Of a stretch of 34,419 nt of DNA, positions 28,694-34,419 are shown in pieces (positions within the stretch are counted from its first letter, which is position 1; every line of letters begins with the position of its first letter). The notes beneath the pieces are model-generated. The model searched no databases. It saw only the letters and a program-made list of their open reading frames with translations, and was not told where the DNA came from. Origin of the DNA: Candidatus Woesebacteria bacterium RIFCSPHIGHO2_02_FULL_42_20 (GTDB lineage: Bacteria > Patescibacteriota > Microgenomatia > UBA8517); the NCBI GenBank assembly GCA_001792535.1, contig MGGS01000004.1:1-34419 (forward strand). Reading direction: 5' to 3'. The translations under genes were made by a program, and so were the position numbers.

Positions 28694-29044
28694 ATGTCTT
28701 TAAAGCCCTGGCTAATCGTCACTTTGATCGTTTTTTTAGGGTTTCTCACAATTCTGGCCTTGCAAAACGCCTGTCTAAAAAACCAAGTTGGGGCTCCAAC
28801 TCCTTCCACAACAACCTCTCCCTTACCAACAAAAGACTGTGTCGTGGGGGGATGCTCAGGTGAACTTTGTGTTGAAGAGGAATCCGAAGCGGTATCAATC
28901 TGCATTCTAAAGCCCGAGTACGAATGTTACAAAAATGCAACTTGCGCACGCCAGAAAAACGGCAGCTGCGGATGGACTCAAACTCCGGAGCTTACCAACT
29001 GTCTTGAGAACAGTTTAAATAAAAATTACAACCCCTACCTTTAA
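28694..29044 (+). CDS. TM-anchored cysteine-rich protein (eight-cysteine-cluster type)
   Basis: CVVGGCSGELCVEEESEAVSICILKPEYECYKNATCARQKNGSCGWTQTPELTNCL: eight cysteines after TM anchor. Confidence 0.65.
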   Translation: MSLKPWLIVTLIVFLGFLTILALQNACLKNQVGAPTPSTTTSPLPTKDCVVGGCSGELCVEEESEAVSICILKPEYECYKNATCARQKNGSCGWTQTPELTNCLENSLNKNYNPYL

Positions 29045-29084
29045 CCAATGAATCACCTCCATTCTACCTATGCTAATATTACTT

Positions 29085-29753
29085 ATGGAAAACAGCGATC
29101 CAGCAAACTACAGCCCTATCAAAGTCGATCCTGTGCCGGAACAACTCTCCCCGACCGAACAGAAGCTTATCGATAAACTGTTTCCAAAAGTAAAACCCGA
29201 AGTCAGACCTTTAATTTTACCCGGAACGCTGCTTGTCGTTATATCAATTCTCGCCATTGGGTTAGTTTTGATTGCAAATAAGCCACGAAAAGTCAGTCAG
29301 CAGCCAACCAGTGTCCCGATCCCCACAGCCGAACCAACACCCTCACCAATCTCAACCACGGACTGGCAAACTTATTCAAACTTTGGAATCGAAATCAAAA
29401 CTCCTCCCACTTGGTCTGATCCTGAAACCAGACTCGGTGCCACCTTTACCAGTTTGAAATTTAAGTCCACATTTGCAATAGACATTAAGGGTGAGCGTTT
29501 CGATGAAAACAGTTTTAACGATTATATCGAAAACTATTCTCAAGCGGTAAAAACCAGACCCGAAGACGTAATTATGGGAAACAAGCCAAGCAAAAAATTT
29601 GATGTAGTAACTGGCGTCGATACAGACAGAATCGAAATTTTTACCTACAGCGAAACTCCTCCTCTATTAGTAAAAATCTCTTACGACAACCTTTGGAACC
29701 CGGAAATAACTAATATCAATCAAATCCTCTCCACTTTCAGATTTACAAAATAA
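29085..29753 (+). CDS. PsbP-like domain membrane-anchored protein (paralog 1)
   Basis: TM + Pro-rich linker + WQTYSNFGIEIKTPPTWSDP … ITNINQILSTFRFTK. Confidence 0.65.
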   Translation: MENSDPANYSPIKVDPVPEQLSPTEQKLIDKLFPKVKPEVRPLILPGTLLVVISILAIGLVLIANKPRKVSQQPTSVPIPTAEPTPSPISTTDWQTYSNFGIEIKTPPTWSDPETRLGATFTSLKFKSTFAIDIKGERFDENSFNDYIENYSQAVKTRPEDVIMGNKPSKKFDVVTGVDTDRIEIFTYSETPPLLVKISYDNLWNPEITNINQILSTFRFTK

Positions 29754-29768
29754 TTAGCTTAGTACACG

Positions 29769-29777
29769 TGATATAAT
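29769..29777 (+). promoter_or_regulatory. Extended -10 promoter element
   Basis: TGATATAAT, 6 nt before ATG 29784. Confidence 0.5.
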
Positions 29778-29783
29778 GGGTTT

Positions 29784-30140
29784 ATGGGAATAACAACAAT
29801 CCCGGTAACGCTTACGGATCTAACTGAAAAGAAAAAAGTAAACGCTGATTTTCTGGTCGACACAGGCGCAAGTTATACCGTTGTACCGGCCAGATTTGCA
29901 AAAAAACTCGGGTTAAAAGTCGATAGAAAACAAAAATTCAGTCTGGCAGATGGAACTATCATGGAAAGAGGTCTAGGATTTGCTGTTGTCGAAATTGAAG
30001 GTAAAAAAGCACCGTCCACAGTTGTTATCGGAAAGGAAGGAGATTCTCCGCTTCTTGGTGCCCTGACACTAGAGAATTTAGGACTCATGGTTGACCCTTT
30101 CAGCCGAAAACTTCGCCCCATGAAGTTAATGCTGGCCTAG
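29784..30140 (+). CDS. Clan AA aspartic protease-family protein
   Basis: ADFLVDTGASYTVVPARFAKKLGL … PLLGALTLENLGLMVDPFSRKLRP. Confidence 0.8.
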   Translation: MGITTIPVTLTDLTEKKKVNADFLVDTGASYTVVPARFAKKLGLKVDRKQKFSLADGTIMERGLGFAVVEIEGKKAPSTVVIGKEGDSPLLGALTLENLGLMVDPFSRKLRPMKLMLA

Positions 30141-30214
30141 TCCAAAAACGATGTCCTGACTGTCCCGGATAGGTAGTGGGCAAAGATTGGTGTAAAAAAC
30201 AGCACAAAAGAGCC

Positions 30215-30251
30215 TTGACAGCAAACATATTGAGTGTTATGGTGTATACAC
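30215..30251 (+). promoter_or_regulatory. Promoter with overlapping palindromic operator of a TA module
   Basis: TTGACA 30215-30220, 17-nt spacer, TATGGT 30238-30243; perfect palindrome GTGTATACAC 30242-30251 just before ATG 30253. Confidence 0.55.
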
Positions 30252-30252
30252 T

Positions 30253-30525
30253 ATGATAAGTCAACTTACCAGAATTCAAGTTTATGTCGAACCGAAGAAT
30301 CTCGCGGTCGTAGATGAAATTGCAAAGGAAATCAAAATAAAAAGGTCTCAAATAATTAGAGATGTTGTTGCTAGTGTCGTAAACTCTTACGTAAAAACGG
30401 CCCAACTTTTAAAGATAGATAAAATAAATAATCTTAAAACATGGCTTGAACTCAAGGGAGCCGAGGAGAGTAAACTCAAGGATTTAGGTTTAAGAGTCGA
30501 TGAGATCTACAATGCAACTACCTAA
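30253..30525 (+). CDS. RHH-like antitoxin
   Basis: TRIQVYVEPKNLAVVDEIAKEIKIKRSQIIRDVVASVVNSYV. Confidence 0.7.
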   Translation: MISQLTRIQVYVEPKNLAVVDEIAKEIKIKRSQIIRDVVASVVNSYVKTAQLLKIDKINNLKTWLELKGAEESKLKDLGLRVDEIYNATT

Positions 30526-30943
30526 AAGAGTATTCATTGACACGAGTGCCTGGATTGACTTCACTCTCAAAGGCGAAAAGTATCATCGAGAAATTTCTGA
30601 ATATCTAATCTCAGAGGTCAAAAAAGGAAGTAAGTTTTTTACCAGTGACTACGTATTAGATGAGACGTTTACAAGATTGATTACTGGCCAGAGTTTTGCG
30701 TCTGCAAAAGTTCTCAAAAATAAAGTTAGGAAGTTAGAGAAAGAAAAACAACTTTTGGTACTCTGGACAGACGAAGTGTTTTTCAACAAGGCCTGGGAAT
30801 ATTTCGAAAAATTCTCAGAACACAAACTATCATTTACCGATGCCACAATTTATACGTTCGCGAAAGACTTAAAAATTAACGAGATTCTAACCCTGGACAG
30901 GGGGTTTGAGAAAGTGGGGTTAACTGTACAACCGAAGCTCTGA
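30512..30943 (+). CDS. PIN-domain toxin, VapC-like
   Basis: RVFIDTSAWIDFTLKGEKYH … KLSFTDATIYTFAKDLKINEILTLDRGFEKVGL. Confidence 0.88.
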   Translation: MQLPKRVFIDTSAWIDFTLKGEKYHREISEYLISEVKKGSKFFTSDYVLDETFTRLITGQSFASAKVLKNKVRKLEKEKQLLVLWTDEVFFNKAWEYFEKFSEHKLSFTDATIYTFAKDLKINEILTLDRGFEKVGLTVQPKL

Positions 30944-30961
30944 AATTTTAAAATAAATTTA

Positions 30962-31702
30962 GTGGATAAAAAACTAAAAGGCTTTGCCGCATTCAGTTCA
31001 CTACGGAGCAGCTCACATGCTCGTAGTTCACATGAACGTGGCTTTGCACATGTTCTGATTTTGATTGCGGTTGTTTTAGTTCTTGCAGTCGGAATCGCCG
31101 CGTCTTCGGGTGCGCTCAGACCCCTATACTCCCCCACCATAAATCCATCCCCTAGTTCTAACGATTACGACAAAAAAATAATTGAGGTTGTACTTAACAT
31201 AAAAACACAGCTCTCTGAATCTTCGTTAACCATCAACCAAAACGGAGAGGTCAAATATTGGGCTAGATACTTAAACAGGAAAATGCCAGATATAATTGAA
31301 ACAGGTACTTTTTCTGATGAACAAATGAAAAAACTGACTGAAAAAATTTTTGAAAATAATTTCTTCTCCATGCCCGAAAGGCCTTATAATCCTAAAACTG
31401 ACCCTATCGGCGGATCCTATTACTATCTGACCGTTAAATACTTTCCAGGTGACCCTTTAGAACCGATGTTCCCTTCCCAAAAGACCGTTTACTGCTACGA
31501 GTTTAATTGCGAAAAGGGCTTTCTGGAAATCAAAGATGTGATAGTTAGCTTTTGGGGAAAAGAAGTCCTGGAGGTCGAAGTTTGTAAGACAGATTCCGAT
31601 TGTCCTCAACCTGACTGCGCTGTGGGTCCGGATGAAAAACCAGTCGGTAACTGTCCCTATTACATCTGCCAGCAAGGACAATGTGTGCCAAAGTATTACT
31701 GA
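30962..31702 (+). CDS. Exported protein with pilin-like N-terminus and cysteine-rich C-terminus
   Basis: GTG start; RGFAHVLILIAVVLVLAVGIAASSG; C-terminus CKTDSDCPQPDCAVGPDEKPVGNCPYYICQQGQCVPKYY. Confidence 0.65.
   Translation: MDKKLKGFAAFSSLRSSSHARSSHERGFAHVLILIAVVLVLAVGIAASSGALRPLYSPTINPSPSSNDYDKKIIEVVLNIKTQLSESSLTINQNGEVKYWARYLNRKMPDIIETGTFSDEQMKKLTEKIFENNFFSMPERPYNPKTDPIGGSYYYLTVKYFPGDPLEPMFPSQKTVYCYEFNCEKGFLEIKDVIVSFWGKEVLEVEVCKTDSDCPQPDCAVGPDEKPVGNCPYYICQQGQCVPKYY
30980..31047 (+). repeat. 60-bp in-frame insertion flanked by 8-bp direct repeats
   Basis: GGCTTTGC at 30980-30987 and 31040-31047; interior contains CTACGGAGCA…TGCTCGTAG and GTTCACATGAAC inverted repeats. Confidence 0.6.
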
Positions 31703-31724
31703 TCAAAGTTGTATACTAATCATA

Positions 31725-32678
31725 ATGAAAGAGGCAAGTCAACCTCCAAGCAATCAAACACCGACTGAGCAAGTCCCTAAACCGACTCCCCCACCTGCTT
31801 CGTCCCCAATCAAACCCCGGATTGTTTTAAGCGTCGTTCTGATGGTATTTTTACTCAGTTTAGTTACGTTTACCTTTGTGCGTGCTCTACGATTTAACAG
31901 TCAGGTTAAAAATCAAATTCCCTCACCTCAAACGACAAAGATCTCAACACCGACCCCAGATCCCACTGAAAACCAGGTACCGAATGGTAACCTGGAAAAC
32001 TGGAAAACATACCAAAACCAAATTGTGAATTTTCAATTCAATTACCCGGATAACTGGATAATAAATAGCAACCCTGACCAACTTTACGTGAGCGTATACA
32101 AAAGCAAACCTTATATTAATCAATTTCGAATCCAAGCTCGCGATAAAAGCACTTGGTCTACTAATTACACTCTGGATCAAATAGCTTCCGAATTAAAACA
32201 CTGGGAAATATTTTCCACTGCTTTTTGGGGAGATGCTGATCCCAAGGAAGAAAGTCAAGAAACGATAAATATTGGAAATGTTAAGGCAATCAAGTTTATT
32301 TATAAACTCAACGATCCCGGCTTGACATTCAATCATATAATGTGGATTGTTACAACTTATGGGAATTATGTTTTAACTATCAGTGCCGCAGGAGAAGACA
32401 TAGATACCTTAAAGCAAATCCTCTCCACTTTCAGGTTTTTGGACAAAAGTAATCCATGGGATAAATCAGTTTGTGGAAATAAAATATGTGAGCCGTGTGA
32501 AAATGAGTGCTGCAACTATCCGTGCAGCACCGATAATAATGGTCAAGAATATTGCCCACCCCCAGTTTGTTTGGGACGCTGTCCTCAAGATTGCCGGCCT
32601 GGGCAAGAAATAGAATGCGAAGAAGGATATATCGAAGTCTGCGAAGGTGGCTTGTGTGATTGTCTAAAGGCAAATTAA
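31725..32678 (+). CDS. PsbP-like domain protein with cysteine-rich C-terminus (paralog 2)
   Basis: TM + linker + NLENWKTYQNQIVNFQFNYPDNW … KQILSTFRFLDKSN + CGNKICEPCENECCNYPC…; TATACT 7 nt before ATG. Confidence 0.65.
   Translation: MKEASQPPSNQTPTEQVPKPTPPPASSPIKPRIVLSVVLMVFLLSLVTFTFVRALRFNSQVKNQIPSPQTTKISTPTPDPTENQVPNGNLENWKTYQNQIVNFQFNYPDNWIINSNPDQLYVSVYKSKPYINQFRIQARDKSTWSTNYTLDQIASELKHWEIFSTAFWGDADPKEESQETINIGNVKAIKFIYKLNDPGLTFNHIMWIVTTYGNYVLTISAAGEDIDTLKQILSTFRFLDKSNPWDKSVCGNKICEPCENECCNYPCSTDNNGQEYCPPPVCLGRCPQDCRPGQEIECEEGYIEVCEGGLCDCLKAN
31968..32011 (+). repeat. 44-bp palindrome-containing repeat, copy 1
   Basis: 42/44 identical to 33947-33990; CCAGGTACC-gaat-GGT(A)ACCTGG hairpin. 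Confidence 0.75.
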
Positions 32679-32719
32679 GCCCATGACTAAAAACTCAAAA
32701 GGGGTTCTAAACTCAATTC

Positions 32720-33700
32720 ATGAATAATTTTATCAAGCCTACTAAAACTAAGGTTTTTATAACCATCGTTTTGTTTCTTATTGGGTTTGTCTACTCCTTC
32801 GTTCTTTCACACATCTCATTTACAGGCGACACAACCAGATATTTACTCATCGCTGATCTGCTCCTGGGACCAATCTATTTCCTGAGTAACTATCTAAAAA
32901 ACCTTATTATTCTTATTCCAATATGGCTTTTGTACGTTTACCTGTTTACTTGTTCAATTGTCTATCTTGGCCACGTTCCCCGACCCCGGCTTCGCTTTTT
33001 GCCTTTTATCCTGATTACCTTCATCTCTCTCTTGTTCGCATTTCTGAATAGTGATTTTAAAATCCCGCCTTCTTCTTCAGCCCGGCAATGGCAAACTTTC
33101 ACCGACCACGGAATTGAAATAAGAATTCCCCCTCATTGGTCTAAGCCAAAAATTACCAAAGCAACCGCACTTTCAACCACTATGGAGTTCAACGTCGGTT
33201 TGACTATTGAAACCAAACTCCAATATTTAGATGATAATAGTTTCAATATTTTAATAGACGAATACTCAAAATCTATAAATAAATCACCTGATGAGATAAA
33301 TCTAGGGCAGGTTACGGGCAAAAGATTTTTCATCCAAACCAGTGTAGACACCGATAAAATTATCATCTTTGCTAAAGGAAGAAACATCTGGGTAGTAATT
33401 TCTTATCCCAACCTCTGGAATCCGGAAATAAATACCATTGATCAAATCCTCTCCAGTTTCAGGTTTTTAGATACGTCAGACGAAAATGAAGCCAGAAGGA
33501 AAAGTTGCGAATCTGCACAAGGGTATTGGCTGGAAGAATACAACGAATGTGCATCGCCCGGAGGAAACTATTTCAAAGCTGGTTATGATGAAGAGTGTCT
33601 GAAGCTGGGAGGAAAATTTCAGGACTGTGTATCACCATGCAGACATGATCCCAACCCAAAATATTGCCCAGAGGTCTGTGTGCAAGTCTGTAAATTTTAA
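32720..33700 (+). CDS. PsbP-like domain membrane protein with cysteine-rich C-terminus (paralog 3)
   Basis: Multiple TM then RQWQTFTDHGIEIRIPPHWSKP … TIDQILSSFRFLDTSD + cysteine-rich tail. Confidence 0.65.
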   Translation: MNNFIKPTKTKVFITIVLFLIGFVYSFVLSHISFTGDTTRYLLIADLLLGPIYFLSNYLKNLIILIPIWLLYVYLFTCSIVYLGHVPRPRLRFLPFILITFISLLFAFLNSDFKIPPSSSARQWQTFTDHGIEIRIPPHWSKPKITKATALSTTMEFNVGLTIETKLQYLDDNSFNILIDEYSKSINKSPDEINLGQVTGKRFFIQTSVDTDKIIIFAKGRNIWVVISYPNLWNPEINTIDQILSSFRFLDTSDENEARRKSCESAQGYWLEEYNECASPGGNYFKAGYDEECLKLGGKFQDCVSPCRHDPNPKYCPEVCVQVCKF

Positions 33701-33703
33701 AAC

Positions 33704-34419
33704 ATGACCAAAAACTCAAAAGGCTCTATTTCTTTTTTAAAAGAAATTCAGAATGTTTGTTCTTCGAGCATTATCCATAAATTGTGGTTGGGATCTGTAA
33801 TATTCAGAGTTGCGATATTTATTTTTGGTGTTACACTGCTACTTTTTTTTCTGATTTCAATTACGATACTTAAGGGTTTCCAATCTGCCCTTCTCACGCC
33901 CCCACAAACATTTACAGCGATCCAAACTCCCACAATCAATCCTACAGAAAACCAGGTACCAGATGGTAACCTGGAAAACTGGAAAACATATACAGACTTA
34001 AAATGGAAATACCAAGTCAGTTACCCTGCAAGTTGGGAGGAACCAAGAGAAACTCATCCAGTCTCCGATTACACTGTGGGGTTCATTAGTTCTGACAGAG
34101 ACAGTAACACCTTTAAAGCCGAGACTCCTGGCGCACCCACCTACGTTCTATATATTACTGTCTACCGGAAAACAAAATCTACGCTGGAAGAAGAATCCAA
34201 ATTGAGGGGGGCAGAAGTTCCCCAATGCGCTTTGGGTGACCCGTGCCCACCCTTCCCACCAAAAGAGATAATCAAAAAATCAAACAGCCGATTCAAGGAA
34301 TACTATTCTGTCTTAACCTCGAGCAACTTAAAACATACCATCATCCCTCTACCATCCGACGACCGGTATTATGTAGATATTTGGACTTGGTACACATGGC
34401 CCGAGAACGATTCGGGTCT
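33704..34419 (+). CDS. PsbP-like domain membrane-anchored protein (paralog 4), truncated by window end
   Basis: MTKNSKGSISFLKEIQ…, TM, NPTENQVPDGNLENWKTYTDLKWKYQVSYPASWEEP…; open to window end. Confidence 0.6.
   Translation, partial: MTKNSKGSISFLKEIQNVCSSSIIHKLWLGSVIFRVAIFIFGVTLLLFFLISITILKGFQSALLTPPQTFTAIQTPTINPTENQVPDGNLENWKTYTDLKWKYQVSYPASWEEPRETHPVSDYTVGFISSDRDSNTFKAETPGAPTYVLYITVYRKTKSTLEEESKLRGAEVPQCALGDPCPPFPPKEIIKKSNSRFKEYYSVLTSSNLKHTIIPLPSDDRYYVDIWTWYTWPENDSG
33947..33990 (+). repeat. 44-bp palindrome-containing repeat, copy 2
   Basis: 42/44 identical to 31968-32011. Confidence 0.75.

Follow-up and report, generated by a model that had tools for sequence, protein, structure and literature searches.

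A mosaic array of predicted envelope-protein genes in a Woesebacteria genome and a DNA word conserved at the 3' end of its PsbP-fold domain

Introduction

The window analysed here, the whole 34,419-nucleotide contig MGGS01000004.1 (contig C4) of Candidatus Woesebacteria bacterium RIFCSPHIGHO2_02_FULL_42_20 (genome of 1.08 Mb, 98% complete), ends inside an array of genes for predicted envelope proteins with a shared domain of the PsbP/Mog1 type. The end of this domain is encoded by a short DNA word that is kept at synonymous sites across the phylum, and genes of the array are mosaics with breakpoints at this word. We regard it as reasonably probable that the domain is a DNA cassette exchanged through recombination, with the 3' word as its anchor, and that this exchange diversifies the envelope proteins of the array.

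Bacteria of the Candidate Phyla Radiation (CPR) live on other cells with tiny genomes and are probably host-dependent, and how they vary the proteins shown to their partners is a largely open field. Diversification of envelope proteins by cassette swap at a phylum-conserved word would be a previously undescribed way of doing so; a literature search turned up no account of either PsbP-domain arrays or exchanged cassettes in CPR, and the one hypervariable CPR surface gene that it did find is a different, tripeptide-repeat case (PMC6851277). A word of this kind at domain-swap breakpoints marks variable envelope proteins in many uncultivated genomes and predicts recombination sites, and its silent recoding in a transformable CPR species could separate a role of the DNA from a role of the protein.

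The array and its shared domain

In the window, the array takes in genes 28694, 29070, 30962, 31725, 32720 and 33704 (named by their first position), an aspartyl-protease-like gene and a ribbon-helix-helix (RHH)/PIN pair (Table 1). The typical gene plan consists of an N-terminal membrane anchor, a proline/threonine (P/T) linker, at least one PsbP-fold domain and, sometimes, a cysteine-rich tail. An initial annotation of this DNA had described at least four consecutive membrane-anchored PsbP-like paralogues, all with a QILSTF-type motif. Genes 29070, 31725, 32720 and 33704 do have transmembrane (TM)-like segments, P/T-rich linkers and PsbP-like cores, but the start proposed at 29085 is an internal ATG of 29070, three further features (29784-30140, the RHH/PIN pair at 30253-30943 and gene 30962) lie between 29070 and 31725, and the motif is not seen in 33704, which the contig end at 34419 truncates before the end of its core. 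The annotation was right about cysteine-rich tails on some of the genes (14 cysteines within the last 90 residues of 31725, eight in 32720) and about two cysteine-rich exported neighbours, 28694 and 30962, in the latter of which a PsbP core is not recognisable.

The window holds the left part of the array, which continues beyond the window end and numbers at least 12 related genes in all. Contig C6 (12.6 kb) carries, on its minus strand, at least eight further genes of the same make, including a third exact copy of the 20-mer described below. The sister species G001 (same genus) has only two array-type genes between matching flanks, compared with about ten here; since its aldolase-side flank matches C4 and its AbrB/Fic-like side matches C6, C6 probably follows C4, forming with it one array of about ten genes. 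If this probable join is correct, the array has expanded or contracted after the split from G001. The cluster is neither invariant nor single-copy among its relatives.

The core of 31725 was modelled with a predicted local distance difference test (pLDDT) score of 89.5 and a predicted template modelling (pTM) score of 0.84. The model matches the cyanobacterial protein CyanoP (2xb3; Z 13.0, root-mean-square deviation 3.5, 143 aligned residues), for which there is also a profile match (E 0.0021), further proteins of the PsbP/Mog1 fold, among them Apa and LpqN of the mycobacterial envelope, and the type VI immunity proteins Tsi3 and TplEi (Z 9.7-11.7). On this modelling evidence the shared domain is of the PsbP/Mog1 fold over its full length, and the proteins are not a collection of unrelated folds. 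Sequence profiles give weaker matches: Pfam family PsbP_2 (PF18933) scores own-genome proteins at 17-20 bits, under its gathering cut-off of 27 bits, and is matched in 18 of 48 relatives at E≤0.01 (best 5.8e-9). The cores of 31725 and 33704 are detected by Pfam (sub-threshold) and those of 29070 and 32720 by a family profile built from the 48 relatives, with which the core is detected in 86 of 115 genomes from the class and in 112 of 239 sampled over the whole phylum. The domain thus resembles the Mog1p/PsbP-like superfamily (CyanoP 2xb3, PF18933 PsbP_2, LpqN, Apa and DcrB) in its whole-domain fold and a weak sequence-profile match, whereas the array proteins differ in being membrane-anchored, with P/T linkers, cysteine-rich tails and multicopy arrays, and in a C-terminal helix that is fixed at the nucleotide level.

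A DNA word under constraint at the end of the domain

The initial annotation had located a 20-mer that is exact at 29721 and 32415 and has one mismatch at 33443. We confirm these positions, but its reading as a sign of recent duplication does not hold. Nine array genes of this genome carry CAAATCCTCTCCACTTTCA with zero to two changes, yet amino acid identity among their cores is mostly 20-43%, and the word is found phylum-wide. It occurs with at most one mismatch in 24 of 115 relative genomes, the reversed control in none, and the 23-nucleotide pattern CAAATCCTCTCCACYTTYARRTT is present in 98 stretches in 84,980 genomes, compared with about 0.1 expected by chance from the pattern's length and the 257 Gb searched. 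These stretches are nearly all from CPR, in Microgenomates and Parcubacteria lineages. Exceptions are limited to a chance match in Paenibacillus and a 6.5 kb contig binned as Deltaproteobacteria (L231), which carries a genuine domain and is probably a mis-binned CPR contig. Viral contigs hold no copies of the 23-nucleotide pattern, and a phage origin was rejected on this ground.

In 96 of the 97 occurrences that were read, the word lies in frame, on the coding strand, at the end (last helix) of a PsbP-fold domain; it encodes this helix (QILSTF) and the strand that follows. Its place in the gene varies from the last codons to more than 300 codons before the stop. All eight copies of its 11-mer core in the own genome fall in array genes, and two PsbP-like paralogues outside the array, C18:19022-20293 (ending ...RVISSFKF) and C7:40692-41852 (ending ...EIIDSFQY), are both without the word. 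Near-exact words per domain reach 26% in genomes with at least seven domains, versus 9.5% otherwise (p 0.001; p 0.015 without the own genome), as would be expected if arrays keep the word homogeneous.

The Q-I-L-S codons CAA, ATC, CTC and TCC are used in 98, 89, 92 and 82% of array domains, versus 72, 20, 11 and 10% elsewhere in the same domains, and where the genome or gene has no near-exact word, domains still have ATC in 46%, CTC in 42% and TCC in 55%. The I-L-S columns carry 1.4-2.1 bits of Kullback-Leibler divergence, compared with about 0-0.2 bits (background) at the conserved WKTY, GF and YP columns, and ILS in other proteins of these loci is coded ATCCTCTCC in one of 108 cases; these controls exclude the genomes' codon preference as the cause. 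Conservation has sharp limits, at about -3 and +23, and past roughly +28 nothing is kept. In individual genes here and there, a Leu, Gly, Lys or Ser codon has taken the place of the preceding Gln codon, yet the core ATCCTCTCCAC is retained. Because conservation of synonymous sites greatly exceeds what codon usage would give, with the other conserved codons at background, sequence comparison indicates that the DNA or RNA itself is constrained at the word. Common descent or old transfer alone would be insufficient to explain identical synonymous sites, since the cores have lost DNA similarity.

The N-terminus was considered as a second DNA-level element and rejected, its MTKNSKG codons being near-identical in the own genome but not across genomes. 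A second stretch with unusually conserved codons, GIGYYAYKNGQI with Gly as GGG and Ile as ATA, is seen in a small number of sequences, the N-termini of the Woesebacteria paralogues at L058, L061, L062 and L074.

Mosaic genes and domains shared between species

Gene 32720 and gene 10359 of C6 are unrelated in their first parts and 91.5% identical in DNA over 259 nucleotides from the word on, and two G001 copies (the L060 pair) behave likewise, with 90.8% identity over 141 nucleotides. At site L059:10271 of genome G042, the left part matches one neighbour (97.7%) and the right part another (92.9%). Between two species (L243 and L271), an identity of 92-93% runs exactly from the TGG codon of W-Q-T-Y to the motif end, and the flanks are unrelated. 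A comparison of cores across genomes (330 distinct domains) gave seven matches: one is ordinary orthology with both flanks conserved, whereas all six others lose similarity right of the word and four of the six share neither flank. Cores that match across species are 75-93% identical, and tails that are 90-94% identical sit behind unrelated cores. Ends of high-identity alignments fall within 10 nucleotides of the motif in 14.4% of cases versus 3.5% expected (4.1-fold), and the corresponding figures for the 25 nucleotides around the domain start are 17.9% and 3.9% (4.6-fold). Replacement is also visible between sister species: 29070 retains, at 54.6% amino acid identity, the N-terminal 105 residues (8-112) of its G001 orthologue, in which both core and tail are different ones. 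Mosaic genes with breakpoints at short conserved DNA are the pattern known from vls/pilS-type cassette variation.

The initial annotation had proposed that variable tails on a shared scaffold form a diversifying surface or host-contact system. Such a system, at the envelope and with exchangeable tails on a common scaffold, is supported by the fold (model and PDB comparison) and by the finding of the same tail on unrelated cores, but the main diversity lies in the core, apparently swapped as a unit, and not in the tails. For the sole recent tail pair, the nonsynonymous and synonymous divergences (dN 0.09, dS 0.16) point to no obvious positive selection, so that tails seem to be exchanged rather than visibly selected for change. 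The TM anchor, P/T linker, exported domain and disulfide-type tails fit envelope proteins facing other cells, and to this extent the architecture agrees with the suggestion, with host contact as a possible role. Most array copies look intact, and the word also occurs in a few fragments (L059:10271, L060 (reverse strand) 9475 and L071:6840). These fragments are short open frames or frame-broken remnants, either degraded genes or silent cassettes.

Proposed exchange and its alternatives

In the model that we favour, the cassette would comprise about 380-460 nucleotides, from the W codon of the W-x-T-Y start to the word (GAC)CAAATCCTCTCCACTTT encoding the last helix. Cassettes and tails would move between paralogues and occasionally between species, with the 3' junction at the word and the left junction at the start of the domain, a place of much lower DNA conservation at which similarity is found at the protein level only. 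Most likely, Rec/DprA-type recombination would act on sister DNA or on DNA that has been taken up, the word serving as a short shared anchor. The anchors of the proteins would stay constant, while the set of envelope-exposed parts that they carry would change. CPR phyla are reported to conserve the uptake genes ComEC, DprA and ComFC, and natural transformation has been demonstrated in Saccharibacteria (PMC10633639), which makes the uptake of foreign cassettes plausible. The data show the array, the fold, the position and extent of the synonymous conservation, the mosaic breakpoints, domains that species share without their flanks, and a core replaced between sister species. That the process is homologous recombination, that the proteins are exposed at the surface and that contact with other cells selects for their variability are inferences, and the same holds for the acting enzyme, for the direction in which cassettes move and for the function, be it host contact or immunity to toxins.

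Several points weigh against this model. The left junction is without a comparable DNA word, so that a two-site cassette mechanism appears unsupported, and the word (about 20-24 nucleotides) is short for efficient RecA exchange. Homogenisation within genomes alone would not keep synonymous codons phylum-wide, and an extra constraint, either site selection or an RNA role, would be needed. In other classes of the phylum the codon skew is weaker, although still present (Leu CTY 68 versus 26%, Ser TCC 42 versus 10%). Because domain set A was selected with the word, the percentages obtained from it are upper bounds, and the genome-wide scan was also motif-selected; in sets B and C, which carry less of this bias, the effects are smaller but still clear. 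The figure for alignment ends at the motif is partly inflated by the word itself seeding alignments. Finally, all genomes are metagenome assemblies, one per species, in which population-level switching is not seen. We regard cassette exchange as the most economical reading.

The main rival for the constraint is an RNA or translational role, with the word kept because a regulator or small RNA binds it, or because ribosomes pause where the domain ends; the breakpoints would then coincide with it simply as a domain boundary. The constraint does act on nucleotides, invariably in the reading frame of the coding strand, pausing would be natural at a domain boundary, and the word, at which no hairpin is found, is predicted to be less paired in RNA than its flanks (0.44 vs 0.53). 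However, a position anywhere from the last codons to more than 300 codons before the stop fits such a role poorly, precise nucleotide identity is kept and not just any rare codons, and the loss of similarity of tails and cores at the word would by itself be left unexplained. No consistent complementary partner is seen near the word, ribosome-binding sites included, and pairing with these sites was rejected for this reason; 8-mers of the word's complement reach about twice the reversed control but are scattered. We consider an RNA role alone unlikely. Plain tandem duplication and divergence under protein selection, with the 20-mer reflecting a conserved peptide plus codon bias or recent duplication, would account for the tandem paralogues and the strong conservation of QILSTF, but it is contradicted by the control columns, the synonymous conservation being specific to the QILS codons, by the occurrence of the word in several CPR classes, by abrupt breakpoints and by the low identity of most cores that share the word; we rate it very improbable. 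Least probable of all is an assembly artefact in which short repeats made metagenome assemblers fuse unrelated gene halves: the genomes are indeed all metagenome-assembled, repeats lie at the breakpoints and the window contig ends inside the array, but shared tails and cores are 75-93% identical and not identical, long repeats are absent from the left junctions, the L243/L271 cassette was recovered from separate data sets, and repeats of about 24 nucleotides are shorter than the k-mers that assemblers usually use.

A further alternative accepts the same cassette exchange and concerns what is selected: the array may encode immunity proteins, the target being contact-delivered toxins and not host surfaces. 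Several type VI immunity proteins (Tsi3, TplEi/Tli4) have the same fold, the location in the envelope and the very divergent cores agree with this function, and rapidly evolving orphan immunity genes have been described in gut bacteria (PMC12247911). The fold is generic, however, with CyanoP, Apa, LpqN, DcrB and Mog1p scoring equally well, and effector genes were not identified near the array. To our knowledge, cysteine-rich tails are not a feature of immunity proteins. Adhesion or host contact and immunity to such toxins are both compatible with the array, and we hold the immunity function as a tentative possibility.

It is also possible, but doubtful, that cassette exchange is carried out by a dedicated CPR recombination system, which would read the coding-embedded word (GAC)CAAATCCTCTCCAC at the 3' end of the PsbP-fold domain and load and exchange cassettes from a phylum-wide gene pool. 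If true, this would be a cassette system unlike integrons, vls or diversity-generating retroelements (DGRs). The genome encodes two closely similar integron-integrase-like/Xer-type recombinases at unrelated loci (C18:12990-13802 and C13:99022-99852), both without the IntI-specific region, which are candidates for a trans-acting recombinase.

Comparison with known systems

Cassette-based antigenic variation is known from Borrelia vlsE/vls, with short direct repeats, and from Neisseria pilE/pilS, with the conserved cys2 region. As in these systems, a variable segment of (here presumed) surface proteins is bounded by short conserved DNA and shuffled among tandem copies. In contrast to them, the array consists of many apparently complete genes and not of one expression site with silent copies, its junction word is kept across a phylum, exchange extends between species, and it is known from one genome per species. 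Integron cassettes are likewise small exchangeable genes with a conserved junction, toxin-antitoxin genes among them, whereas the array junction lies inside coding sequence and is unstructured, without an attC-like hairpin. A search of the own genome for an integron integrase (TIGR02249) gave nothing above cut-off, the Xer-like matches covering positions 2-178 and 237-313 only, and an integron was rejected on these two grounds. DGRs, which are frequent in CPR, similarly direct diversification to surface proteins, whereas variation in the array is whole-domain with length changes; a DGR was rejected, as reverse transcriptase (PF00078) has no matches in the 98% complete genome. DNA uptake sequences are also short conserved words in naturally competent bacteria. 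A genome-wide uptake word was rejected, all eight genomic copies of the array word being in one gene family.

Features of the locus and neighbouring genes

Table 1. Array features in the window (contig C4)
Feature	Position	Strand	Remarks
Cysteine-rich exported protein, left array edge	28694..29044	+	G001 orthologue, 58% amino acid identity
Predicted envelope protein, without tail	29070..29753	+	cytoplasmic N-terminus, TM segment at residues 44-73, P/T linker, PsbP-like core up to the conserved word
PsbP-like domain, putative cassette of 29070	29364..29747	+	W codon to motif end
Conserved DNA word CAAATCCTCTCCACTTTCAGATTT, copy 1	29721..29744	+	
Retroviral-type aspartyl protease domain protein, within array	29784..30140	+	PF13975, E 6.9e-12
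VapBC-like pair, within array	30253..30943	+	RHH antitoxin-like 30253-30525; PIN toxin-like 30500-30943 (PF01850, E 1.5e-14)
Exported protein	30962..31702	+	HERGF-type hydrophobic N-terminus, cysteine-rich tail
Predicted envelope protein	31725..32678	+	TM segment at residues 26-57, P/T linker, PsbP-fold core, 14-cysteine tail (CGNKICEPCENECC...)
PsbP-fold domain, putative cassette of 31725	32001..32441	+	model pLDDT 89.5
Conserved DNA word CAAATCCTCTCCACTTTCAGGTTT, copy 2 (exact)	32415..32438	+	
Predicted envelope protein	32720..33700	+	three TM-like segments, PsbP-like core, cysteine-rich tail in common with C6:10359-11597 (91.5% DNA identity)
PsbP-like domain, putative cassette of 32720	33089..33469	+	
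Conserved DNA word, copy 3, one mismatch	33443..33466	+	left edge of the block in common with C6
Cysteine-rich tail CLKLGGKFQDCVSPCRHDP... of 32720	33470..33697	+	second copy on a different C6 core; distant relative in G032
Further array gene, truncated by contig end	33704..34417	+	MTKNSKG start, TM segment, P/T linker, PsbP-like start

The distant relative of the 32720 tail (54% amino acid identity) is found in a 65-residue open frame, G032:C5:74105-74296, in which there is no core. Toxin-antitoxin-like pairs occur in or beside the array: in addition to the RHH/PIN pair, an AbrB-like gene and a Fic/Doc-like gene, the latter judged from its translation only, lie at 3409-4036 of C6. By analogy with large integrons, such pairs possibly stabilise the array. 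At the far end of the array contig, an insertion sequence-type transposase, integrase-core-like by eye, is located at C6 2300-3370.

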